Source of the DNA: a bacterium
GTDB lineage: Bacteria; UBP15; UBA6099; JAJRTR01
NCBI GenBank assembly: GCA_024278215.1
Contig: JAJRTR010000012.1
Location: 1 to 31,081 of the forward strand
DNA: 31,081 bases
Direction of reading: 5' to 3'
In this document: one piece after another, positions 3,203-28,920 of the stretch
Layout: each line of letters starts with the position of its first letter
Position numbering within the stretch: position 1 is the first letter of the stretch
The notes under the pieces: generated by a model
Told to the model about the DNA's origin: nothing
The model's input: only the letters and a program-made list of their open reading frames with translations
The model's database searches: none
Made by a program: the position numbers and the translations under genes

Positions 3203-3379
3203 AACTGATTGCAAAATTATGTTCGAAGCGAGGTCGAGCGAAATTATTCATAAGCAAGGCGGAAGTGCAAAATCCCCGCAGGCGTACTCGCCGAGTACGT
3301 TGAGGATGATTTTGTGCCGACAACGCAGCTATGGACAATTGCAGCCGACCACAGCCGAATCAGATTTTTGCAATCGGCT
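3203..3379 (+). repeat. MITE-like element A, copy 2 (177 bp)
   Basis: Aligns along its whole length with 1973-2148 in the same orientation. The left end AACTGATTGCAAAATTATG is inverted relative to the right end TTTTTGCAATCGGCT. The internal CGTACTC-GCC-GAGTACG is a perfect 7-bp hairpin, while copy 1 has a partly altered one. With copy 1 it brackets the entire tRNA/rpsU unit, and it ends 27 bases before the next gene. Confidence 0.85.
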
Positions 3380-3406
3380 CTAAAGAAAATGAGAGTGGGC
3401 GTTAAT

Positions 3407-4804
3407 ATGGCAAAGAAGAAAGGCGAGATTGAATTCAAAAAGGAGTTCTATCGCAACCTTGGTGTGAGCGACGAAAAGATTTTCTCCAACATAGAAATGG
3501 GTATCGAGCTTTACCTGGGGAAACACGACCGCAAGTCGCGACTGACAGATGCGGCGACACATTTCGAACGGTCGATGGGTATCTTCTCGACTTCTTATGT
3601 GCGTATGGTGCAGGAGATTCTTCGCAGTACCGACAACAACCTGTGCCCCTCGCAATCTTTTTTTATTAACTTCGGCGCGCTGGACCCACGACTTGTGCAG
3701 AACCCGAGGGTGATCGAAGAGCTTCGTTCGGAATCCGTTTCTTCTTTCGACACGGCAAAGTATGAAATGTTTTATCTCACCGAATGGCTGGAGAAAATCG
3801 GGCGCGGTCGCATAACGCTCTCGGCTGATAAGGCAAAAGTGAAGTCGAAATCGACTCTCGAGGAAAAAGGCGAAAAGCTCAAAGAGAAAAAGAATAATTT
3901 CCAGGCCGAACTCGATGCTTTCTGTAAAGAGGAAAATGATATTTACTATGAGTTGAAGGGAATGTTCAAACTTTTTTCTCCGTCCGGCAACCAGGAGGAA
4001 AAAATAAAGATTCTTAAAAAGATAAAAGAGAAAGTGAAAAAGCTTGAGAAGGCTGTCAACGAAGAGAACATTCGTTATGCGGAAATAGATGCGATAGAGA
4101 GAAGAGAAAAGGGCGTGTCGGATAAAATGGACGATTTCGCCGCTGTGCGCATGGACCGTAAATTTACGCGCATTCGCGAAGAGTTCGAGTTTATCACTTC
4201 AGCGATGCGCAGTTGCGCCGCGCGTGGGGGGCTGATGAAGAGCACGCCCGCGCTGATCGACAAATGGATTCCGCTGGATGAGCGGCTGAACATCAACACG
4301 AAGCACAATCTCGCCGAGGCGCTCTCGAGATTCGAGGATATAGACTACACGGTTTTTCACAATAAGAAAGGTGAACGCAAGTCACCGAAGTTCCTGATCC
4401 TGCCGGGTGTGGGCACAGGCATATCGTGGAGTGATCGCATGCTGGTGTCGCTTTTTCCGCCGCCGTCTATGCAGCCGGATATTTCTCTTGCGCGCACTCT
4501 CGCCGGTTTCTGGTGGTACAAGGCCACGAGTTCTTTCAACTGGAAACATCTCCCCGGCGAACTCGGAAGTATGTACCAGCTGATTTACCCCGACAAGACC
4601 TTTGCCAGACTGCAACGTTCGTTCGAGGATGATTACGTGAACTGGGTAATGAAAGAATCAATGGGCTACCAGGTGATCAGTTCCGATGTACGCCGACTTT
4701 TCTGGCAGAAGATACCGTTCTCGAGGGAACTGAAGCAAAAGTTGTCGAAACGCGCCACCGTTTACATGAAACTCTATTCCGAGGAACTCGCCCACGGTAG
4801 TTGA
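3407..4804 (+). CDS. Unrecognised cytoplasmic coiled-coil protein (465 aa)
   Basis: I do not recognise a family. The chosen start is ATG 3407, giving MAKKKGEIEFKKEFY. The frame is open further upstream, but that part lies inside repeat element A and is not credible coding sequence. There is no signal peptide or membrane segment. Residues about 1-150 are mixed helix. Residues about 160-265 are strongly charged and heptad-like (KEKKNNFQAELDAFCKEEND, KIKEKVKKLEKAVNEEN), suggesting a coiled coil. Residues about 290-460 form a globular aromatic-rich domain with ILPGVGTGISW, AGFWWYKATSSFNWKHLPGE and SMYQLIYPDKTF. The ribosome site is weak (GAGAGTGGG). The gene stands alone between the tRNA unit and a convergent tatC gene. 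The GTG-rich loop ILPGVGTG is not a convincing Walker motif. Confidence 0.7.
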   Translation: MAKKKGEIEFKKEFYRNLGVSDEKIFSNIEMGIELYLGKHDRKSRLTDAATHFERSMGIFSTSYVRMVQEILRSTDNNLCPSQSFFINFGALDPRLVQNPRVIEELRSESVSSFDTAKYEMFYLTEWLEKIGRGRITLSADKAKVKSKSTLEEKGEKLKEKKNNFQAELDAFCKEENDIYYELKGMFKLFSPSGNQEEKIKILKKIKEKVKKLEKAVNEENIRYAEIDAIERREKGVSDKMDDFAAVRMDRKFTRIREEFEFITSAMRSCAARGGLMKSTPALIDKWIPLDERLNINTKHNLAEALSRFEDIDYTVFHNKKGERKSPKFLILPGVGTGISWSDRMLVSLFPPPSMQPDISLARTLAGFWWYKATSSFNWKHLPGELGSMYQLIYPDKTFARLQRSFEDDYVNWVMKESMGYQVISSDVRRLFWQKIPFSRELKQKLSKRATVYMKLYSEELAHGS

Positions 4805-5787: not shown

Positions 5788-7851
5788 TCAGAATTCAGTA
5801 GAATATCCGAGCTCGAATGTTTTCTCTTCGTAGGTGCCGAGCTTGTTCGCTATGTACCTGTATTGCTTGTCGTAATCAATAATTTCGAGTTTTAATTTAT
5901 CGGCCTTATTCAAGTAATAGAGAAATGTGACAGTGTGTTGTTTTTCCAGCGGCGCGCCGGAAAGAACTGCGCCCTCTATGCTTTCCAGTGAATAGACTTT
6001 CTTGCCGGTTCTCCTGTAATTCAAGTTGGTTATGAATTTGAATGGAATGATATTCAACTGGAGAGAATAGGAGTCTGTGTTCGACTTGCCGTAAGTTACG
6101 GACGTACTTTTTCCGGATGAATTTTCAGAGTATGACCAGGCGTAGGCCTTGTTGTATGATGTGCTGTAGCTCATGTTGGCAAACGATTTGTATCTTGTCG
6201 AGAAGCGCCAGCTTCTTGTGTCGTTTCTGCCCATATAGTTCTGGCTGGAGCTGGTGCCGTAGACTAGGCGGTCGATATCATATCTCGAGAATGTGTTGAT
6301 GACAGTGGTGCCGGTGAATGCCGATGTGTTGTGGAACCGTTTCGTGGTTGTAAGCATGAAAGTTGTCGATTCGCTCCGCAGCGTATTCGGTATCTGGACT
6401 CGTTCCCTGGATTTCGTGTAATACTTGCTGTAGCGCAGGTTGAAACGCGGGAATATATTGCCGTAGTTCAGGACGGCGGTCGAGATGGATTCCCTGGTTT
6501 CATCTGTGATGTTGTCAGGCAGGTCATGGTGAAGGTTGTCGTGATATTTTTCATAAGATGTTGTCAATGCGATTTTTCTTGAAGGTCTTATGAAAACAAC
6601 CTTGCCATAGTTGCCTTTTTTGTCGGGGACGACTCTTCCGAGTACGGTCGGGGTGTAACGAGGCCCGATGCTTTTGTGTTCGCCTCTAAATATAAAGTTA
6701 CCGGTTCTGTAGTTGATCCCGGACCTTAAATACAGGTCGGCACCGTTGTCGTATTGTGACGAAGGCGCATCTTCCCTGTGGTTGTCGACTGCTATTTCAC
6801 TGTCCCATGTTAAGTTTTTGTCAAGTATATATACTGTGCTGAGGCTGACCAGAGAATCCTGGATGGGATTGTCGGTGGAGCTCGACAGGCTTCTTTCCGT
6901 TGATCGCAGTGCGGTTAGTTTCGCGGATAATTTAGGTGTGAACCGCCTGTCGAGCTTGAACCCGGTGGTGTATCGCTTGTGCCTGCCGTCGTGTGGTTCC
7001 TGCGACCTTCCCGTGAAGAATGTAAAACGGTTGTAGCCTCTTCTATCATATTTCCGGAGTAGATACAGGCCTCTCATCTGCACTCCGAAAATTGTGCTCT
7101 CCGAGAAATCCCGTTTCGACATCTGGAAATCACCGAAAGTTATGTCATAGTTGCCGCGCGCTATGTAAGGGTCGATATACCTGAACTTGAACCTGTCGTT
7201 TGCTCTGCCTGTAAGCTGTTCCACCGACCTGTCGTAGTGTCCGAGAAGTGTTTTCCCGTAAAACCTGTGTGTAAAATCGAAACTTCCTGTTTTATCTAAA
7301 CCTTCCTGATACTTGATCTCGTTTTCGCTCCTGTTTGCCTTATATCTTTCCGCTCCATTGAGCTCGATAAGTTTGACATTTGCCGTATATTTGCCTGTTG
7401 TGACAACTTCGTTGGACCTGACAACCGGTGCTCGTTTTCTTACAGTCGGAGCGATTTTCTTTACCAGTCGGAAAGACCATGCCAGGGGCACTACTGTTTT
7501 TCCATTGGTATCCTGGTATGTGGCAAGCACATTATGTGTGCCGAAACTCAATGGATTCTGCGGCATATAGAAAATATACTCAAGGCTGACCTGTGTCTCG
7601 GTAGTTACCTCGTCGCCGTCCAGAAAAAGCTTTATTGTAGACATGTCCAGAGGCGGGTCCGGCTTCGGCAGCTTGATGGAAATGTACGGCTGCCTGTCCG
7701 TTATTGCTTCGCCGGGCAACGGAAAGATAATATTTCCCGATGATGTCCCGACCCCGTCTGTTTGTCCGTTGCCCTGTGCCATGCTGAGCGATCCGCCGAT
7801 CAACATGCCAGCACAGGTCACAAATACGATCAATATCGTTTTTATCCTCAT
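5788..7851 (-). CDS. Outer-membrane beta-barrel protein with N-terminal Ig-like domain
   Basis: About 687 residues. The chosen start is ATG 7851, giving a classic signal peptide (MRIKTILIVFVTCAGMLIGG...LSMAQG); an earlier GTG at 7899 only adds a polar stretch. Residues about 30-135 look like an Ig/FN3-like periplasmic domain (FPLPGEAITDRQPYISI, STIKLFLDGDEV, GTHNVLATYQDTNGK). A basic linker follows (RKRAPVVRS). From about residue 160 onward the protein alternates short amphipathic strands and turns rich in Tyr, Arg and Thr, ending ELGYSTEF, a C-terminal aromatic residue as recognised by BamA. I infer a large barrel of 16 or more strands. The cargo is unknown; no TonB plug domain is evident. 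The gene is transcribed away from the aminotransferase gene. Confidence 0.7.
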   Translation of the reverse strand: MRIKTILIVFVTCAGMLIGGSLSMAQGNGQTDGVGTSSGNIIFPLPGEAITDRQPYISIKLPKPDPPLDMSTIKLFLDGDEVTTETQVSLEYIFYMPQNPLSFGTHNVLATYQDTNGKTVVPLAWSFRLVKKIAPTVRKRAPVVRSNEVVTTGKYTANVKLIELNGAERYKANRSENEIKYQEGLDKTGSFDFTHRFYGKTLLGHYDRSVEQLTGRANDRFKFRYIDPYIARGNYDITFGDFQMSKRDFSESTIFGVQMRGLYLLRKYDRRGYNRFTFFTGRSQEPHDGRHKRYTTGFKLDRRFTPKLSAKLTALRSTERSLSSSTDNPIQDSLVSLSTVYILDKNLTWDSEIAVDNHREDAPSSQYDNGADLYLRSGINYRTGNFIFRGEHKSIGPRYTPTVLGRVVPDKKGNYGKVVFIRPSRKIALTTSYEKYHDNLHHDLPDNITDETRESISTAVLNYGNIFPRFNLRYSKYYTKSRERVQIPNTLRSESTTFMLTTTKRFHNTSAFTGTTVINTFSRYDIDRLVYGTSSSQNYMGRNDTRSWRFSTRYKSFANMSYSTSYNKAYAWSYSENSSGKSTSVTYGKSNTDSYSLQLNIIPFKFITNLNYRRTGKKVYSLESIEGAVLSGAPLEKQHTVTFLYYLNKADKLKLEIIDYDKQYRYIANKLGTYEEKTFELGYSTEF

Positions 7852-8136
7852 AATTATGAAGTTATGCTCCCTTGTTTTCTGTTGAGAATTGTTTATCACA
7901 ATATACTAATCAAATCAATATGTTAATAAATATTTTGCAAATACAATTGCCTTTTACAAAAACGCACAAGTTCAGAACTTATTGAAAGTATTCCCGGTTT
8001 TGCGATATTTACGAATATATATTACTGCTGAGTTTGTTTGTATCGCTGAACGCTTTATTCGATAACAATTCTCGCCATCACATATTTCATGTTCTATAAA
8101 ATATTGAAACGTAATAATGAACGGTTGCAATGTATA

Positions 8137-19128: not shown

Positions 19129-19440
19129 ATGGCTGATATCAGAATAGTACATACTTCGAATCTGCACCTAGGGCGCAGGTTTCCCGATTTCGACAGGGAT
19201 ACGGAAGAACTTCGCATACAGGATACAATAAACGTCTTCCATGATCTAGCCGGTTATGTGATCAAAAACGAAGTGTCGTTGCTGCTTATCGCCGGTGACT
19301 TGTTCGACAAGGCGAATCCGAAGCGCGAGACGATCTCGAAAGTGCTTTCCGTATTCGGCGAGATACACCGGAATCTTCCCGACACGCGAATAATAATCAC
19401 TCCGGGCCGTGAAGAACTGGTGATGAAGAATGATGGATAA
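19129..19440 (+). pseudogene. SbcD/Mre11/YhaO-like gene, N-terminal fragment ending at an in-frame TAA
   Basis: The first 103 codons of a metallophosphoesterase of the DNA-repair nuclease class. It starts ADIRIVHTSNLHLGRRF, where the family has HTSDLHLG: the metal-binding Asp is Asn. LLLIAGDLFDKANP keeps the GDxFD motif. Where the family has PGNHD it reads TPGREEL, so the Asn-His pair is gone. TAA at 19438-19440 stops the frame, yet the same frame continues with matching sequence to 20319, giving a total length near 396 codons, normal for SbcD/YhaO. Either a nonsense mutation, a sequence error, or two separate polypeptides explains this. The ribosome site is weak. Confidence 0.7.
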
Positions 19441-19485
19441 CTCGAGTGTACGCTGAACTTCTTCGAGCATCTCTCGTATGTTAAA

Positions 19486-20319
19486 GTGATCGGCGGCGCG
19501 AAAACGCCCGAGTCGGTCAGGTACGAATTCGGCGACACCCCTGTAGTGATATCATCGTGCAGGGCGGACCTGCTTTCAGAGAAGTCGGCGGCGCTTCGAA
19601 AGATACCACATCCGGCGGAAGGCGAGGTAGGGATATTCCTGCTTTCATCATATTTGCGGCGTGGGAGTGTGCTCGAGATCGACGACGATCTGCTGAGAGA
19701 TCGAATAATCGCGCCGCTCAAGAACCGTGGCTACAAGTATCTCGCGCTCGGCGGTCGCCATGAAATTGATATTGTTGAAACCGGCGAATTCAGCGCGATT
19801 TTTTCCGGCGGTCTCGAGCGTTTTGATTTCGAGAAAGACAGGGGCCGCAAATGCTTCATTTCTTTCATGGTCGGTAGCGGCGGAATAAAAAATGTCGAAA
19901 CCGTTCGCACGCGCGCCCGCAAGATGGAGTTCATAAACATCACCTGCGACAGCAAGACAACCGCCCTTGAAATCGAAGAGGCGGCGGCGGGTTTCGCTGC
20001 AAAGCGAACGAAAAGCAAACTCCTTTATATCGTTCTCGGCGGACAGCTTACCTTCGAACAGTTCAAGGCATTCGAGTCGAGCGAGAAGCTGCGCGAACTC
20101 AGGGAACAATTCATCGCGGTCCATATCGACAACCGTCTTTACCTGATCGACAGCGACATGGACTACAACTTCGACGCGCTGTGCGTCAATTCGCCGGCCG
20201 ACGAATTTATGAGAACAGTGAAAAAGGAAATGGACGAAGCCGGCGACAGGGGCAAGGAAGTGAAGCTCCTCGAGGAACTGCTTCAAATGGGACTGGAGGA
20301 GATCGAAAAAGGATTTTGA
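19486..20319 (+). CDS. SbcD/YhaO-like protein, C-terminal part (split gene, non-catalytic)
   Basis: In the same frame as the upstream fragment; codons 19441-19485 (LECTLNFFEHLSYVK) join them seamlessly. If translated separately, GTG 19486 could start it. LLSSYLRRG and NRGYKYLALGGRHEID correspond to the family's second histidine region, where active nucleases have GHxH; here it is GGRH, so another ligand is missing. The later half (CFISFMVGSGG, KLLYIVLGGQLTFEQFKAF, IDNRLYLIDSD) fits the capping domain. It overlaps the next gene by 4 bases (TTGA), as SbcD and SbcC partners usually do. I infer a structural partner of the ATPase rather than a nuclease, or a decaying gene. Confidence 0.65.
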   Translation: MIGGAKTPESVRYEFGDTPVVISSCRADLLSEKSAALRKIPHPAEGEVGIFLLSSYLRRGSVLEIDDDLLRDRIIAPLKNRGYKYLALGGRHEIDIVETGEFSAIFSGGLERFDFEKDRGRKCFISFMVGSGGIKNVETVRTRARKMEFINITCDSKTTALEIEEAAAGFAAKRTKSKLLYIVLGGQLTFEQFKAFESSEKLRELREQFIAVHIDNRLYLIDSDMDYNFDALCVNSPADEFMRTVKKEMDEAGDRGKEVKLLEELLQMGLEEIEKGF

Positions 20320-23267
20320 TAGTAAACGGCGTAAAAGCACATAACTTCATGCGCTACGGCGATTTCCAGCTTGATGGTTTTCCCGAAAAGGGACTGATCG
20401 GTATATTCGGCGAGAACGAAAGCGGGAAGTCCACCATCGGCGAGCTTATTTGTTTCTGCCTCTTCGGTCGCACGCCGCGTGCGCCCGAGGGCGAGCCGGA
20501 AAAGCTTATCCGCTGGGGTGAAGACACTTGCAGCGCTGAACTCATTTTCACTGTGGTGGATAAAAAGTTTCGCGTGAACAGAATGTTGACGCGCGACGGC
20601 GGGTCCGACGGCGGGCTTGTAGCGGTCGACAGCAGCGATATCTACGCGTCCAACGCGCAGCAGATCGAAGGTGCCGTCACCGATCTGCTGGGATACGGGT
20701 TCAAGGAATTCCGCTATTCGACATTTATCGCGCAGAACGAACTCGACATCATCCTGCACAGTTCGGAAGACCGCAAACTGGTACTCAACAACATGCTCGG
20801 CGTGGGTTTCATGGAGAATATGGCGCAGAGGGTGTCCGACAGGAGATACGGCTATGAGGCCGAACTGAAACAACTGCGGAGCAGGGCAGCAGACAAATAT
20901 GAGGTGTTGAATGTTTATGCGGCACGCGAAAGAGACATGGAGCGTGTCAGGCAACGGATGGACAGCGTCAGCAAAAAACTCCTCGAACGGCTCAAAGAGC
21001 ACGACCACGTCCAGTCGACTATTTCTCTGCTCAGCGAGATCAGCAGGAAAACCGAGCAATATGAAGTGCTGGACGCACGCATAAAAAGCAGGCGCGAACG
21101 TCTCCAGAAGATCGAAGTTCAGTGCAGCGAGTTGATGCGCGAAGTCGACAGGATTCCTGAGATAGAAAAAGCAATCGAAGAAAAAAAGAACAGCATTTAT
21201 GAAATTCAGCACAGTCGACAGGCGCGGATAGACGAGCAGTTCAAAAAGCTGGACGAGTACCGGGACAGGCGCGATGAACTCGACAGGATCAACTCGAATA
21301 TCGACTTGAAGAACGCCGCGCTGGGCGAGATCACCGCGAAACTCAGGCAGATCGAAGAAAAGGAAAACCTGATTCAGGAATTTACTGTCGAACATGCCAC
21401 GCTGGATTATTTCATCAAGGCTTATTCCGGCTCCGACAGGTTCAAAACAGCGGCTACACATCTGATAAAAGATATGGAGTTGCTGCACAGCGAAATAGAC
21501 AAAGTGCGGACTACTCACCGTAAAGACCTCGAGATATTCCGGGAGCGCGAGAAAGCATTCGTCGAGCAGCAGTCGAGAATAAAAAAGCAGATCAGCGCGT
21601 CGACCATTCAGGAAGTGGACCCCGGCAGGCTGGCCGATCTGAAAAAAAAGGCGAACTCGAACACGAAACTGCGCGACCTCGGACTGATGGCCGGCATTTT
21701 ATTCCTCGCCGCCGGTGTCGGACTCACTGTCGCGCTCGGGAGCGTCACGTATCTCGCCGTGCTTGCGGGCATGATACCCTCATGCGGCGTGAGCTTGCTG
21801 CTGCAGAATAAAATCCGGGCGCTCCGCGACGATATTCAGGAACTCCAGCAGCAGTCCTACGCCTACAGCATTACCCAGCGCGGAATAGCCGAACTCCAGG
21901 ATTCGACCGAAGACGTGCAGCAGCATCTCGCCGCGATTCACGACGAAATCGCGCAAAAAGAAAAAATGGGACCGGTGCTTTCTAAAATTAAGGTAAACAA
22001 TTTCGTCGACCTCGAAAACAACATCGAAATGCTCGAAGAAATAAGCTTCCGCGAACTCGAACGCACACGCAGCATGATGAAGGATATGCTCCACAGTTAT
22101 ACCGACCTGCGGAAGCTCGTCGGCGACGACTCCATTCCGTTCGGGCATATAATAAGCTTCGATCTCGATGAATTCATGAACCGCAAAAGCGAGCGGCGCG
22201 ACCGGCTCGAAGAAGACCTCGACAGGCTGAAAAGTGAACTCCACGGCAAAGAAGAACTCGTGCGGCAGTCGGAAACTCTCCTCGAAAGCATCGCCCGCAT
22301 GAGGCAGAATGCCGAGTCGGTTGTCGAAGCGATAGACGCGCTCGGCGTGACCGAGGAAGACGAGCCGGAGCTTAAAAGACAGGAACAACAGTTGTCGGTC
22401 GACCTCGAACGACTTCAGCGCGAGATCGACGAATGCCGGGCGGAAATACGAACGATAGAGGCACGCCAGGACGAGGCCGCCGAACTCGAGGACAGCCGCC
22501 GTGCCATCATCGACGAAATAGACAAAGACCTTATAAAACTCTACGAATTGCGCGAAACTACTGTGGACATCGATTGTTCACCCGAACGGTTCAGAGAACT
22601 CCAGAGGCAGCTCGAGAGCCTCGAATTGTTGATTCAGGAAGCGCGTGAGGAACTGAAGGAAGTCGAAGGCGAAATGAAGGTGGTCCGCAAAGACCTCGAC
22701 CGGATGCCGGCTGTCCAGGAAGAAATCGATAAGCTCGAGCAGAATGCCGAATATACTGAAACATACATGTTGAAACTCAAGGAACTGGAGAATCTGTTCC
22801 TTCAGACAGGCGCTAATATACGCAGACGGTTGCTGCCGCAGATCGAGGCCTATTTCAGCTGGGTGCTGCCACGCATGACGCGCGGTCGCTACCATAAGGT
22901 CAGGCTCGACGAAGACTTCGAGATAAAAGTTTTCTCCGACGAATACGGCGATTATGTGAGTCTCGACACACTCAGCGGCGGCACCATCGACCAGTTGCTT
23001 ATTTCACTGCGTCTCGCTTTCGCCCACGCGACTTTCGCAAACTCCGGCACTTCCGGCCAGTTCCTTTTCCTCGACGAACCTTTCAGTTCCTTCGACGAAT
23101 CGCGCCGCGAACAGTTCTTTAAGCTCCTGCAATCACTGAAATCGAATTTTCAGCAGATTTTCCTCATTTCGCATCTTCCCAACCTTGAAGACTTCACAGA
23201 TCATTACTTCAGACTCGACATCACAAAACAGGAATTACCCGCATCGGTAAGCTGGACCCACTCTTGA
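20316..23267 (+). CDS. SbcC/Rad50/YhaN-like SMC-type ATPase with membrane hairpin in the coiled coil
   Basis: 983 residues from TTG 20316, which overlaps the upstream TGA. The frame is open further upstream, but the family N-terminus (NGVKAHNFMRYGDFQL) begins here and AAAGGA precedes it. Walker A GIFGENESGKST is at about 29-40, and the Q-loop FIAQNE near 138. Two coiled-coil arms (about 190-450 and 500-860) enclose a hydrophobic pair at about 455-500 (GLMAGILFLAAGVGLTVALG then YLAVLAGMIPSCGVSLLL), at the centre of the chain. No CxxC zinc hook is present. The C-terminal lobe has the signature LSGGTIDQLLISLRLAF, Walker B FLFLDEPFSSFDE, and ISHL. This resembles the YhaN type of Rad50-like proteins. 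It likely works at the membrane with the upstream SbcD-like partner in DNA maintenance. Confidence 0.85.
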   Translation: MIVNGVKAHNFMRYGDFQLDGFPEKGLIGIFGENESGKSTIGELICFCLFGRTPRAPEGEPEKLIRWGEDTCSAELIFTVVDKKFRVNRMLTRDGGSDGGLVAVDSSDIYASNAQQIEGAVTDLLGYGFKEFRYSTFIAQNELDIILHSSEDRKLVLNNMLGVGFMENMAQRVSDRRYGYEAELKQLRSRAADKYEVLNVYAARERDMERVRQRMDSVSKKLLERLKEHDHVQSTISLLSEISRKTEQYEVLDARIKSRRERLQKIEVQCSELMREVDRIPEIEKAIEEKKNSIYEIQHSRQARIDEQFKKLDEYRDRRDELDRINSNIDLKNAALGEITAKLRQIEEKENLIQEFTVEHATLDYFIKAYSGSDRFKTAATHLIKDMELLHSEIDKVRTTHRKDLEIFREREKAFVEQQSRIKKQISASTIQEVDPGRLADLKKKANSNTKLRDLGLMAGILFLAAGVGLTVALGSVTYLAVLAGMIPSCGVSLLLQNKIRALRDDIQELQQQSYAYSITQRGIAELQDSTEDVQQHLAAIHDEIAQKEKMGPVLSKIKVNNFVDLENNIEMLEEISFRELERTRSMMKDMLHSYTDLRKLVGDDSIPFGHIISFDLDEFMNRKSERRDRLEEDLDRLKSELHGKEELVRQSETLLESIARMRQNAESVVEAIDALGVTEEDEPELKRQEQQLSVDLERLQREIDECRAEIRTIEARQDEAAELEDSRRAIIDEIDKDLIKLYELRETTVDIDCSPERFRELQRQLESLELLIQEAREELKEVEGEMKVVRKDLDRMPAVQEEIDKLEQNAEYTETYMLKLKELENLFLQTGANIRRRLLPQIEAYFSWVLPRMTRGRYHKVRLDEDFEIKVFSDEYGDYVSLDTLSGGTIDQLLISLRLAFAHATFANSGTSGQFLFLDEPFSSFDESRREQFFKLLQSLKSNFQQIFLISHLPNLEDFTDHYFRLDITKQELPASVSWTHS

Positions 23268-24184: not shown

Positions 24185-24770
24185 TAATTTTAGATAGTCC
24201 GAATACTAACATCACTTTTAAAATCATTTTGGAACATATTCTATTATTTACTGTCTGAAGTTTGAAGATGATCTTTTATTGTGGTATCTGCTATGTGTTA
24301 TAATCGGATTTGTGGTGAACATTGCGTAGTGGCGTAAAAGGGCGAAACTTGTAAACAGGGCGTTATTCGTAATATAATCGAAACCGCGAAAAGATCACCA
24401 TATAGGGAACGACGAAATAAGATTTCGGGGGACTGTTCACGGGGGACATTGAAAATAATGCGTAAACACCTGACGATTCTTCGCTTCGCGCATAATGACA
24501 ACTCGTGGATTTTGAGTTTAACGGCACTATCAGAAAATCCTGGAATGCAAAAACGTCAGTTTTTGCGAAATGCGACTTCTTCATAGTTGCAACGACACAG
24601 TCGTTGCATTCCAGAAATTTCAGAGGTTCCATTGCGAACAGTTACCTGTGAACGGATACGATTTCGGATAGGGGAATATATGCACGAAGGAAACAGATTT
24701 GTGTATGGCATGTTATAGTTGGTTTTTAGTATTGTGTAAAATCGTAAAAACAGTATGACAGGGGTTGCAA
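24185..24770. other. Gap between the Ppx/GppA gene and the ABC operon
   Basis: 586 bases. Apart from repeat C copy 2 it contains two nearby G-rich motifs (CGGGGGACTGTTC at 24427 and CGGGGGACATTG at 24439) and a stretch CTGACGATTCTTCGCTTCGCG near 24471 of repeat-like character. No gene is supported. Confidence 0.4.
24518..24643 (-). repeat. Structured repeat C, copy 2 (126 bp)
   Basis: Reverse complement of 10336-10461, with about 7 differences. Here both inner hairpins are perfect: TGCAACGAC-ACA-GTCGTTGCA and GCAAAAAC-GTCA-GTTTTTGC. The outer arms CCTGGAATGC and GCATTCCAG pair as well. Inverted relative to copy 1, 14 kb away. Confidence 0.85.
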
Positions 24771-25724
24771 ATGATTGAAGTCGGCAATGTAACGAAGCTG
24801 TACGGTACGCTCCGTGCGGTCAACGGGGTTGATTTCAAGGTGAAGAGAGGCGAAGTGCTCGGGTTGCTGGGACCGAACGCCGCGGGAAAAACCACGCTCA
24901 TGAGGATAATGACGGGTTATCTTCCTGCGACGGAGGGCACGGTGAAGATCGGTGGAAAAGATGTGTTCGACCAGCCGCTCGAAGCGAAGAAAAACATCGG
25001 CTACCTGCCTGAGAATCCGCCGCTGTACCCGGAGATGTCCGTGAAAATGTATCTTGGTTTCACTGCGGAAATCAGGGGTGTGCCACGTGGCGAGCGCAGG
25101 CAACGGGTAGCCGAAGTGATTGAGATGACAGGGCTGGGCGATGTACGGGACAGGCTCATTGATAACATCTCGAAGGGTTACAGGCAGAGGGTAGGCCTTG
25201 CGCAGGCGCTTGTGCACGACCCGGATGTTCTCATTCTCGACGAACCCACCGTCGGGCTCGACCCGCGTCAGATTATCGACATACGCAACCTGATAAAAAG
25301 CCAGGCCGGAAAGCGAACGATTGTGCTCAGTTCACACATATTGCCCGAGGTGAGCGCGACTTGCGACCGAATAGTGATACTTAACCGGGGCAATGTCGTT
25401 GCCGTCGACACGCAGGACGAACTCACCCGGCGTGCGAGCGGCGGCGAACATCTTCGCGTCGAGATCGGCGGGTGCACGGCATCGGATGCAGCGGAGGAGA
25501 TCGAGGGGATCGAAGGCGTCGTAAAGGTGGAGACGGCGGGTGGCGCGGGCGACGCGGCAAAGCTGGATGTTATGACGGCCCAGGGCGCAGATGTGCGCGA
25601 AGCAGTTTTTAAAAAGGTGGTCGAGAAAGAATGGATACTCCTCGAGATGTCGCGGGCGGGCATGAGCCTCGAGGATGTGTTTCTGCAACTGACTACCACC
25701 GAGGAGGTGGCGCACAATGGGTAA
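24771..25724 (+). CDS. ABC transporter ATP-binding protein (GldA-like)
   Basis: 317 residues from ATG 24771, with AGGGG about 8 bases upstream; TTG 24765 is an alternative. Walker A GPNAAGKTT (34-42), Q-loop YLPENPPLYPEM, the variant signature ISKGYRQRVGLAQAL (typical of GldA and gliding-type or Nod-like exporters rather than LSGGQ), Walker B VLILDEPTVGLD, and H-loop SSHILPE. A C-terminal regulatory domain of about 90 residues follows. It provides energy for the membrane partner encoded next, whose ATG overlaps this gene's last codons by 8 bases. Together with the three downstream genes it forms a GldA/F/G-type ABC system, here with no other gliding genes in view. Confidence 0.92.
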   Translation: MIEVGNVTKLYGTLRAVNGVDFKVKRGEVLGLLGPNAAGKTTLMRIMTGYLPATEGTVKIGGKDVFDQPLEAKKNIGYLPENPPLYPEMSVKMYLGFTAEIRGVPRGERRQRVAEVIEMTGLGDVRDRLIDNISKGYRQRVGLAQALVHDPDVLILDEPTVGLDPRQIIDIRNLIKSQAGKRTIVLSSHILPEVSATCDRIVILNRGNVVAVDTQDELTRRASGGEHLRVEIGGCTASDAAEEIEGIEGVVKVETAGGAGDAAKLDVMTAQGADVREAVFKKVVEKEWILLEMSRAGMSLEDVFLQLTTTEEVAHNG

Positions 25725-26415
25725 GGCATACTCGGTTTTCAAGAAAGATTTTCGCGGCATGTTCCTCTCGCCGCTGGCTTATGTAGTTATCGCGGTGTTT
25801 TTTGCTTTCAACTCGCTGCTGATCATTCCCGGGATGCAGACTGCGGACATGCGGGGCGCTTTCGGGCTGATGGCGACGATGTTTATTTTCGTTATCCCGC
25901 TCCTTACAATGAGGGTTTTCTCGGAAGAGCTGAGGTCGGGCACAGACGAATTGCTCATGACTTCTCCGATAACACTGCCGCAGATCGTGATAGGAAAGTA
26001 TCTGGCAGTGGTGGGGCTGATCGTGGTGATACTCGCGATCTCGCTCCAGTATGTATACATAATCGCAAAGTTCGGCAACCCGGACTGGGGGCCCATCGCA
26101 ACAGGCTACATCGGCTTGTTTCTGCTGGGAAGCGCGTTCGCGGCGTTCGGCGTCTTCGCGTCGTCGCTGACAAAAAACCAGATAGTCGCCGGAGTTCTGG
26201 CGCTGATCGTGTCGCTGCTGCTTGTGGTGATCGAGGTGGTGTCGTCGATGGTGGGTCCGAAAGCAGCCGACATCCTCGATAAAATCGGGATTATCAATCA
26301 CTATTACGATTTTGATAAAGGTGTAATCGATTCAACGCATATCATTTATTATATCGGATTCATTGTACTGTTTCTTTTCCTGACTGTAAGAAGTCTTGAT
26401 TCGAGACGGTGGTGA
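25717..26415 (+). CDS. ABC transporter permease (GldF-like, ABC-2 type)
   Basis: 232 residues, about six transmembrane segments: PLAYVVIAVFFAFNSLLI, GAFGLMATMFIFVIPLLTMR, YLAVVGLIVVILAISLQYVYI, GYIGLFLLGSAFAAFGVFAS, QIVAGVLALIVSLLLVVIEVV and IIYYIGFIVLFLFLTV. The motif RVFSEELRSGTDELLMTSPI (about 67-86) between the second and third segments is typical of GldF/NosY-type permeases. It begins inside the upstream ATPase gene and is followed by the GldG-like gene with only 13 bases between stop and start. The transported substrate is unknown. Confidence 0.9.
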   Translation: MGKAYSVFKKDFRGMFLSPLAYVVIAVFFAFNSLLIIPGMQTADMRGAFGLMATMFIFVIPLLTMRVFSEELRSGTDELLMTSPITLPQIVIGKYLAVVGLIVVILAISLQYVYIIAKFGNPDWGPIATGYIGLFLLGSAFAAFGVFASSLTKNQIVAGVLALIVSLLLVVIEVVSSMVGPKAADILDKIGIINHYYDFDKGVIDSTHIIYYIGFIVLFLFLTVRSLDSRRW

Positions 26416-26428
26416 GGAGGCGGCACAG

Positions 26429-27892
26429 ATGAAACGAAAAGCGATAAGCGGAATAAATTCATTCCTGATGATAATAATAGTTGCAGGCATAGTGTCGGCG
26501 CTGTATTACATCGCCGACAGGCACCCCCTGAGATATGATTTTACGAGCAATAAAACACAAACTCTCTCCAACAAAACAATAAAAGTGCTCGGAGGGCTGG
26601 ACCGGAATATTGAAATAATCGGTTTCCTCGAAAACGGCAGCATGCCCGCCGAAATGATAGAAGACCTGCTGAAGGAATATCGCAGGCGGACGGATAAAAT
26701 TAGTTTTACTACAGTTGATCCGACGGCGAAACCCGGCGAAGCGCAGAAATACGGCATCACTGAATTCGGCGTCGTTCTGAAATCCGGTGACAATAAGAAA
26801 TTTATTAAGTTGAAGGAAATGTTCGAGACATCACAGAATCCGTACTCGCAGGAGCCGCCGAAATTCTTTGGCGAACAGGCGATCACGAACGCACTCATTT
26901 CCATCACCGGAAAGGACAAACGCCGTGTGTGCTTCATCGAGGGACACGGCGAGCGCGACTTCAACGCTAAGGACGAGAGCGGATACTCGGGTATCAAAGA
27001 CCTGCTCGAAGGCGAAAACTACGAGGTGGCGCCGCTTAACCTCATGACAGAGAAAAATGTACCCGCCACATGCAGTATTATCGCGACGATCGGGCCGGCA
27101 AAACCTTTGAGCGGCGATGAAATAGAAACCGTCAGGCAGTATTTGAACAAAGGCGGTGCCGGGTTGTTCCTGCTGGATGCTATGAAACAATCAGGACTCG
27201 AACCCCTGCTCCACGATTGGGGCGTCAGGGTCGACAACGACCTTGTTATCGACCCGGAAAGGTACTATGGCAACGACCCGCTTTCGCCTGTGCCCTACAT
27301 GAAGCCTCACAAGATAACAGCTGAACTCATGAGCACAAAGTTGACAATCAGCCTCTTCTATGCGCGGAGTATCACCCCGATTGAGGACGATAAAACACAG
27401 ACCGATGTGGAAACACTCCTCGAGACGTCCGATCGAGGCTGGGGTGAGACAAACGTAACGGATGAAAACGCGAAATATGACCGGGGCGAAGACGTGAAGG
27501 GGCCGGTCTCGGTTGCAGTTGCGGTTACGGGACGTGCAACGCCGGACAACGACGATAGTGAGCCCGGAGAAAAATCACAGGCGTTGGACAGGCAAACCAG
27601 ACTTATAGTGATCGGCGACGCTGATTTCGCGTCCAATGCCTTTGTATACCAGTCGGGTCTGGTCAAAGCGCTGGCAGGCGGCGCGGGCAATACTGACTTC
27701 CTTATGAACTCGATCAACTGGCTTGCAGGCGAAGAAGAACTGATCTCAATAAGGCCGAAACCGACTGATATCCGTCCGATGAATATCACGGGCGACCAGA
27801 TAAGTAAGTTTACAATATTATTCGCGGGGGTCGTTCCGTTTTTGATCATAATATTCGGTGTTGTGATCTGGTACAGGAGGCGGTCGCTTTGA
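26429..27892 (+). CDS. GldG-like ABC auxiliary protein
   Basis: 487 residues from ATG 26429 with GAGGAGG at ideal distance; an upstream in-frame start inside the previous gene is unlikely. One N-terminal transmembrane helix (FLMIIIVAGIVSALYYIA), then RYDFTSNKTQTLSNKT, the typical entry of the ABC_transp_aux domain. A large periplasmic part includes VCFIEGHGERDF and GLFLLDAMKQSGLEPLL. It ends with VIGDADFASNAFV, NSINWLAGEEELISIRPK and a C-terminal helix (ILFAGVVPFLIIIFGVVIWYRRR). This matches GldG and related proteins that accompany GldF-type permeases. Its stop TGA overlaps the TTG start of the next gene. Confidence 0.88.
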   Translation: MKRKAISGINSFLMIIIVAGIVSALYYIADRHPLRYDFTSNKTQTLSNKTIKVLGGLDRNIEIIGFLENGSMPAEMIEDLLKEYRRRTDKISFTTVDPTAKPGEAQKYGITEFGVVLKSGDNKKFIKLKEMFETSQNPYSQEPPKFFGEQAITNALISITGKDKRRVCFIEGHGERDFNAKDESGYSGIKDLLEGENYEVAPLNLMTEKNVPATCSIIATIGPAKPLSGDEIETVRQYLNKGGAGLFLLDAMKQSGLEPLLHDWGVRVDNDLVIDPERYYGNDPLSPVPYMKPHKITAELMSTKLTISLFYARSITPIEDDKTQTDVETLLETSDRGWGETNVTDENAKYDRGEDVKGPVSVAVAVTGRATPDNDDSEPGEKSQALDRQTRLIVIGDADFASNAFVYQSGLVKALAGGAGNTDFLMNSINWLAGEEELISIRPKPTDIRPMNITGDQISKFTILFAGVVPFLIIIFGVVIWYRRRSL

Positions 27893-28920
27893 AGAAGTTC
27901 ATCCCGACACTCGCGCTGCTGTCGGTCCTTTGCGGATTGATGGCCTATGCGTATTTTTACGAGAGAGAACCAGTCAGGGACAAAGACAAAAAGGACGTGG
28001 TCGTGGTTCAGAAACTCGATCCGGATTCCGTCGAGCGTATTGAAATCGACGAAGGTTACAATATGATAACGCTCGAAAAAGTCGACGGGAAATGGAGACT
28101 TACCGTGCCCTATGATTCGGCAACAGCTGATATTCCGGCGAAAAACCTTGTGGATGCGGTAACCAAACTCAAAGCGGAGACAAAACTCGATGATGTGAGT
28201 TCGCTCGCTGATTTCGGACTGACTGAACCGGAAAGAAAAATCACGGCATTCCTCAAAAGCGGTGGGAAAGAGCAGCTTATCATCGGCGGCAAATCTCCTG
28301 TGGGCAATAAGCGATATGTTATGAAAAACGGAGCAGGAGCAGTCTATGTTGTCGACAGTTTCAATGTTAATCCACTTATGAAAAGCGCGTTCGATCTGCG
28401 CGACAAAAGTGTGGTCGACGACTTTGACCGTGATAACGTCACGACAGTTGTTGTGATGACACCCGATAAGGATACTGTGTGCGCACGCAACGCCGACGAA
28501 AAGAAAGAAAATGAGGATTCGCACGCGACTGGAACGGTCGACGCATCCGCCACGGCCACCGCTGATACGGGTGCCAGGAAAGACGAAAATGAAAAACAGC
28601 CAAAATGGAGTTTCATCAACAGGCCGGGCACAAACTGCGAGTCCGAAGCAAACGCCATAATGAGCTGGCTCGATTATGCGGAAGCAAAGGGTTTCGAGGA
28701 TGAGGAATACCCGCCGCTCATTGATTTCGGCCTTGTCTCACCGAGATACAAACTCATCTTATGGATGAAGGATAATTCAGAGATAAAACTGGAAGTCGGC
28801 AACTTTGTGGGTAGCGAAGTGTATGTGCGCAATGCGAACAGGGATAAAGTATACAAGGTCGAGCGCGCGCTGACTGAAAAGATCGAAGCGCTGAAACTGG
28901 CGGAATCCAAGTTGCATTAG
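27889..28920 (+). CDS. DUF4340-domain protein of the ABC operon
   Basis: 343 residues from TTG 27889, coupled to the GldG-like gene by a TTGA overlap; AGGAGG lies 8 bases upstream. An N-terminal membrane anchor (TLALLSVLCGLMAYAYF) is followed by an extracytoplasmic beta-rich region in which the DUF4340 unit recurs: VERIEIDEGYNMITLEKVDGKWRLTVP, FGLTEPERKITAFLKSG, KSPVGNKRYVMKNGAGAVYVV, and near the C-terminus FGLVSPRYKLILWMKDN, GSEVYVRNANRDKVYKV. In between, a low-complexity Ala/Thr/Asp/Lys stretch at about 204-235 (DASATATADTGARK) is probably a disordered linker. DUF4340 proteins commonly follow GldG-like genes; their role is unknown. The operon ends here, facing a gene on the other strand. 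Confidence 0.85.
   Translation: MKKFIPTLALLSVLCGLMAYAYFYEREPVRDKDKKDVVVVQKLDPDSVERIEIDEGYNMITLEKVDGKWRLTVPYDSATADIPAKNLVDAVTKLKAETKLDDVSSLADFGLTEPERKITAFLKSGGKEQLIIGGKSPVGNKRYVMKNGAGAVYVVDSFNVNPLMKSAFDLRDKSVVDDFDRDNVTTVVVMTPDKDTVCARNADEKKENEDSHATGTVDASATATADTGARKDENEKQPKWSFINRPGTNCESEANAIMSWLDYAEAKGFEDEEYPPLIDFGLVSPRYKLILWMKDNSEIKLEVGNFVGSEVYVRNANRDKVYKVERALTEKIEALKLAESKLH

Follow-up and report, generated by a model that had tools for sequence, protein, structure and literature searches.

The window analysed here, the whole stretch of 31,081 nucleotides from a genome of candidate phylum UBP15, carries an Mre11/SbcD-like gene that is interrupted by an in-frame TAA codon and in which several metal ligands of the nuclease centre are replaced. 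The question raised by this locus is whether the gene is simply decaying or whether its product has been retained without nuclease activity. In our assessment, the gene probably represents a pseudo-nuclease scaffold conserved in UBP15, the nuclease centre of which was lost before the sampled lineages split, with the TAA being a later change private to this genome.

Reading frame, active-site motifs and predicted fold

The features of the gene, all on the + strand, are as follows.

19129..20319, +, Mre11/SbcD (YhaO-like) pseudo-nuclease gene, 396 codons when the internal TAA is read through, as judged from translation, motifs and predicted fold
19159..19161, +, motif I (HTSNLH), metal-ligand Asp replaced by Asn11, unique among the 56 compared sequences
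19297..19299, +, motif II (GDLFD), Asp57 kept in the window, Ser in five relatives (GS for GD)
19405..19416, +, motif III (GREE for GNHD), residues 94-96, GQEE in relatives; metal-ligand Asn and catalytic His gone phylum-wide
19438..19440, +, in-frame TAA, codon 104, present in this genome alone; aligned with Glu in genome G005 and with Ser in genus g2
19486..20319, +, ORF from a GTG, candidate reinitiation product of 277 aa comprising the remaining nuclease domain, capping domain and C-terminal helices
19645..19647, +, motif IV, metal-ligand His position occupied by Ser173, Cys in relatives
19750..19761, +, motif V (GGRH for GHxH), first His lost (Gly209), second kept (His211)
20194..20307, +, C-terminal helices, residues 356-393 (356-371 and 375-393), predicted, matched in structural alignment by the Mre11 helices that bind Rad50

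The frame reaches its terminal TGA after 396 codons with the TAA as the only internal stop, whereas approximately 19.2 stops would be expected by chance over this length at the local base composition (probability of at most 1 stop, ~6e-8). The 2 alternative frames contain 22 and 12 stops, respectively, and codon bias supports the coding frame both 5' and 3' of the TAA. The translation, the stop expectation and the codon bias thus bear out the preliminary description of about 396 codons open except for the TAA, and its view that the remainder of the frame is intact holds as well, with no second stop or frameshift and coding bias kept on both sides. The N-terminal part of the protein scored 53.1 bits against the curated SbcD model TIGR00619, under the cut-off of 77.65, as did the 5 UBP15 relatives (49.9-60.7 bits).

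All 3 motif changes described earlier (HTSN, GREE and GGRH) are present, and the loss of the motif IV His is additional to them. Altogether, 5 of the 8 checked active-site residues are lost in the window protein, which retains His13, Asp57 and His211.

The structure of the read-through product was modelled from 54 homologues, with the TAA arbitrarily read as Gln. This model (pLDDT 87.9, pTM 0.81) superseded an earlier, poor one from six close sequences (pLDDT 66.5). The read-through product is confidently predicted to fold as a complete Mre11, with a phosphoesterase fold, a capping domain and C-terminal Rad50-binding helices. The best 50 Foldseek matches were all Mre11 or SbcD; in a second structural comparison, Mre11/SbcD chains had Z scores of 23.7-27.1 and the next phosphoesterases 18.3; and chains from Mre11-Rad50 complexes (e.g., 3av0_A) align over model residues 1-392, C-terminal helices included. 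In the model, the stop is located just ahead of a strand within the phosphoesterase core. Because it interrupts this core, a nuclease domain is not expected to form from the truncated product of 103 residues.

Shared loss of the nuclease centre and selection on the protein

We compared all 7 UBP15 genomes of our sample, which represent one order and include the window genome (an assembly of 4.55 Mb in 207 contigs). An orthologue was found in 6 of the 7; in the remaining genome, G002, a contig of 3487 bases ends within the neighbouring ATPase, leaving the pseudo-mre11 region unassembled. The 5 relatives encode full-length, stop-free orthologues approximately 46-49% identical to the window read-through product. 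The motif III Asn, the motif III His and the motif IV His are absent from all 6 orthologues, with the other ligands lost variably: the 5 relatives keep the motif I DxH, motif V reads GHRH in G005 and GHKN or GHKQ in genus g2, and His13 is invariant in all 6. Since the 2 motif III residues and the motif IV His are lost throughout, their loss is most likely ancestral; on this sequence comparison, the ancestor of the sampled UBP15 lineages most likely already lacked all 3, and the remaining ligands were most likely lost afterwards, in combinations differing by lineage. The preliminary description of a pseudo-nuclease proposed an alignment of homologues as a check, and close homologues with intact ligands were not found: the 5 relatives, full-length and stop-free, lack 4 or 5 of the 8 checked residues (at least 4 in each). 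Decay of the gene in this genome alone is therefore ruled out as the origin of the active-site loss, the relatives showing the same losses.

The selection regime was assessed in genus g2. Among its 4 species, codons 1-103 encode an identical protein sequence, and dN/dS over the codons after 103 is 0.030-0.066, similar to that of the partner ATPase (0.029-0.045). Thus, the pseudo-nuclease is under strong purifying selection in genus g2 (dN/dS ≤0.07) and, therefore, the protein is maintained without its metal site. Synonymous sites are saturated in comparisons of the window with its relatives, so that codon dN/dS gives no date for the stop. Branch lengths for the first 103 codons are 0.53 on the window branch versus 0.35 summed for the sisters, and those for the partner ATPase are 0.70 versus 0.89. 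The faster evolution of the N-terminal part than of the ATPase on the window branch fits some relaxation of constraint in this small sample, and the gene could perhaps have been fading in this genome already.

A stretch that begins approximately 85 nt ahead of the pseudo-mre11 start and reaches about codon 55 is near-identical across the 4 g2 species (L109-L112). Even of its fourfold-degenerate sites, 0-1 of 27 changed, compared with about one in five in the remainder of the gene pair, which may reflect either local recombination or a conserved regulatory element at the 5' end.

Searches of genus g2 with the SbcD model and with the intact YhaO-like protein of the window genome (contig C39) detected no intact SbcD/YhaO, including in genomes that are 97% and 92% complete; the pseudo-nuclease is therefore the only SbcD/Mre11-type protein detected in this genus. 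The C39 gene is separate from the window gene, has all motifs intact and lies beside a gene for a 1185-residue ATPase; G005 also has an intact YhaO, on contig C220. By our scans, the ATPase on C39 (L107:1137-4691) has neither a CxxC hook nor a hydrophobic hairpin.

Origin and consequences of the in-frame TAA

The stop at codon 104 is missing from all 5 relatives. Of 350 long ORFs in the window and 800 kb of this genome, 108 end in TAA, and the codon terminates normal genes. Among 314 matches to 5 Pfam families in this genome, 2 domains contain an internal stop (~0.6%); a third flagged case proved to be a normal terminal stop. The 2 cases are listed below.

G000:C123:21638-22066 (L143), ABC ATPase with an isolated in-frame TAA, Pfam domain match
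G000:C115:48536-48895 (L151), response regulator with an isolated in-frame TAG, Pfam domain match

An ab initio scan for isolated stops in the 800 kb plus the window, which supports a rough background rate only, yielded mostly antisense shadow ORFs and one further plausible case (C115:47598, TAG). Stop-codon reassignment is ruled out, given that TAA ends normal genes and that internal stops are rare and mixed (TAA and TAG). The TAA probably reflects either recent damage or an error of sequencing; it would represent an event later than the ancestral ligand loss, be it a recent null mutation, a strain variant or a consensus error.

The chances are nearly even that the TAA stems from an error in the consensus or base calls of the metagenome assembly, or from a minority strain within it, the real gene encoding the full-length pseudo-nuclease. 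A lone stop in an otherwise clean frame fits this explanation, and similar stops are present in the C123 ABC ATPase and the C115 response regulator. At the window site, G005 has Glu, and at the C123 and C115 sites Glu is the usual residue of the respective families. A single type of substitution error could account for this, although 3 cases do not suffice to establish a pattern and internal stops in just 2 of the 314 domain matches indicate that error is not rampant.

That the locus is a plain pseudogene in this species is possible, but we lean against it. The scaffold would then be dispensable, the nonsense codon would be a fixed null mutation, and the ATPase would be either retained or the next to decay. 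Were the TAA genuine, the protein would lose its capping domain, its Rad50-binding helices and whatever part of the nuclease domain lies beyond the stop, and the acceleration of the N-terminal part relative to the partner, the loss of the motif I Asp in the window alone and the intact YhaO/YhaN-like pair on C39 all fit this explanation. It is harder to reconcile with 396 codons devoid of any other stop or frameshift, with coding bias intact on either side of the TAA, with a complete partner ATPase and with a ligand loss that is ancestral rather than a product of decay.

It is unlikely that the family is still alive through a single-metal site that serves another phosphoesterase activity or metal sensing. 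Under the Mre11 ligand assignment that we assume, the window and G005 proteins each retain 3 of the 4 residues of one metal site and may thus still bind a single metal. Next to the invariant His13, Asp57 and His211 are kept in the window protein; in that of G005, the DxH and GHxH residues are kept. However, the retained subset differs by lineage, and the g2 proteins keep just Asp11, His13 and one motif V His.

Translation might also restart at GTG 19486, an in-frame codon 15 codons past the stop, to give a headless protein (partial nuclease domain, capping domain and Rad50-binding helices) still serving the ATPase. The C-terminal helices would be kept, but the split falls inside the phosphoesterase core and no Shine-Dalgarno-like sequence was seen upstream of the GTG, making this scenario decidedly improbable.

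Programmed readthrough or recoding of the TAA as a means of regulating production of the full-length protein is hardly credible despite conservation of the frame on either side of the stop, because TAA is an ordinary terminator in this genome, isolated in-frame stops occur in ~0.6% of the sampled domains and include TAG, and no relative has the stop, leaving the earlier suggestion of a regulatory stop without support.

The partner ATPase, a putative DNA clamp and the wider family

The pseudo-nuclease gene is followed by that of its partner.

20316..23267, +, Rad50/SbcC-like (YhaN/SbcE-type) ATPase, 983 aa, beginning at a TTG that overlaps the TGA of the pseudo-nuclease gene
21672..21821, +, hydrophobic (possible transmembrane) hairpin, residues ~453-502, mid coiled coil at the Rad50 zinc-hook position

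As proposed earlier, the ATPase is complete, with all ATPase motifs (Walker A GENESGKS, Q-loop FIAQ, signature LSGG and Walker B FLFLDEPF), and these are intact in the relatives as well, save one protein ended by a contig edge. The CxxC zinc hook is absent from every UBP15 partner protein scanned; all of them have a mid-coil hydrophobic hairpin near residue 453. Because most YhaN-type partners among the sampled homologues also have such a hairpin, the UBP15 gene pair is, to judge from the sequences, of YhaO/YhaN-type architecture. The hairpin possibly anchors the ATPase in the membrane, as judged solely from its hydrophobicity.

The ATPase matches LmuB (E value 1.1e-27) and Rad50 NCBIfam models (E values down to 1.4e-40), with which it shares the ATPase/coiled-coil architecture. 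None of 10 other window proteins had a PADLOC match, and the Lamassu effector LmuA was accordingly not found nearby. Membership of a defence island or a Lamassu system is unlikely, there being no effector and the neighbours being ordinary chromosomal genes. An ABC transporter block resembling GldA/GldG occupies positions 24765-28920; in genus g2, such a block is also near pseudo-mre11 but flanks its opposite side and points the other way. The long ORFs at 3314-4804 and 5788-7899 (496 and 703 aa) have no Pfam, NCBIfam or PADLOC match.

From the sequences and the predicted structure, we infer loss of activity, dimerisation, scaffolding, DNA clamping and membrane anchoring. The 2 genes would encode an Mre11-Rad50-like complex in which the Mre11 subunit was kept as a structural partner after loss of its nuclease centre. 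The pseudo-Mre11 would dimerise, bind the base of the ATPase coiled coils via its C-terminal helices and shape an ATP-driven clamp on DNA without cutting, and the mid-coil hairpin would anchor or tether the coil ends, perhaps at the membrane. More broadly, and tentatively enough that we would not call it likely, an Mre11-Rad50 machine devoid of nuclease, its zinc hook replaced by a membrane hairpin, may operate throughout UBP15. It would clamp or tether DNA at the expense of ATP, cutting having been lost in evolution, and in genus g2 it would contain the only SbcD/Mre11-type protein detected.

The UBP15 pair resembles Mre11-Rad50 and SbcCD in predicted fold, capping domain, Rad50-binding helices and an operon with a Rad50/SbcC-like ATPase; it differs in the lost metal ligands and catalytic His and in the partner without a CxxC zinc hook. 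With YhaO/YhaN it shares the gene order, a nuclease-like gene and then an ATPase, and the hairpin in place of the hook. However, most sampled YhaO-type homologues keep all ligands, and the UBP15 proteins form a clade of their own on a long stem (support 100/100, stem 1.49), the deeper placement of which is weakly supported among long branches. The title of Krishnamurthy et al. 2010, as cited in PMC4205851 and PMC3896406, links YhaN (SbcE) to the repair of double-strand breaks in Bacillus subtilis.

Across the 56 aligned homologues, 34 have lost none of the checked active-site residues, 12 have lost one and 10 have lost 3 to 5. Parsimony on these sequences gives 5 independent degenerations, and degenerate YhaO-type nucleases appear to have arisen at least 5 times among the sampled homologues. 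Outside UBP15, degenerate forms were found in Zixibacteria (L040 and L053), Sedimentibacter (L069) and Eubacterium (L051). Like the UBP15 proteins, they have lost the motif III Asn and the motif IV His and have an altered motif V, and in L040, L053 and L069 a hairpin-bearing ATPase adjoins the degenerate gene; their origins on the tree, however, are independent.

In DNA polymerase B subunits and GAP50, a non-catalytic phosphoesterase fold has been retained for a structural or membrane-anchoring role. These offer a parallel for the idea of a phosphoesterase fold serving as a scaffold, and GAP50 is among the structural fold matches, but they are not Mre11 relatives in detail and have no Rad50 partner. 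Our literature search found no paper on a dead bacterial Mre11/SbcD. Which roles of Mre11-Rad50 need the nuclease and which depend on end binding, tethering or signalling is a long-standing question, usually tackled with point mutants. A natural lineage without the active site, in which the subunit is under strong selection, would, together with at least 4 further independent cases, allow the structural role to be tested by evolution and supply nuclease-free material for biochemistry.

Among the 12 homologues with a single loss, the residue lost is the motif III Asn in 11. In the YhaO-type proteins L038, L042, L044, L047, L049, L058, L061, L078, L091 and L098, motif III reads GTHD, GSHD or GCHD, only the Asn ligand being replaced and every other ligand retained.
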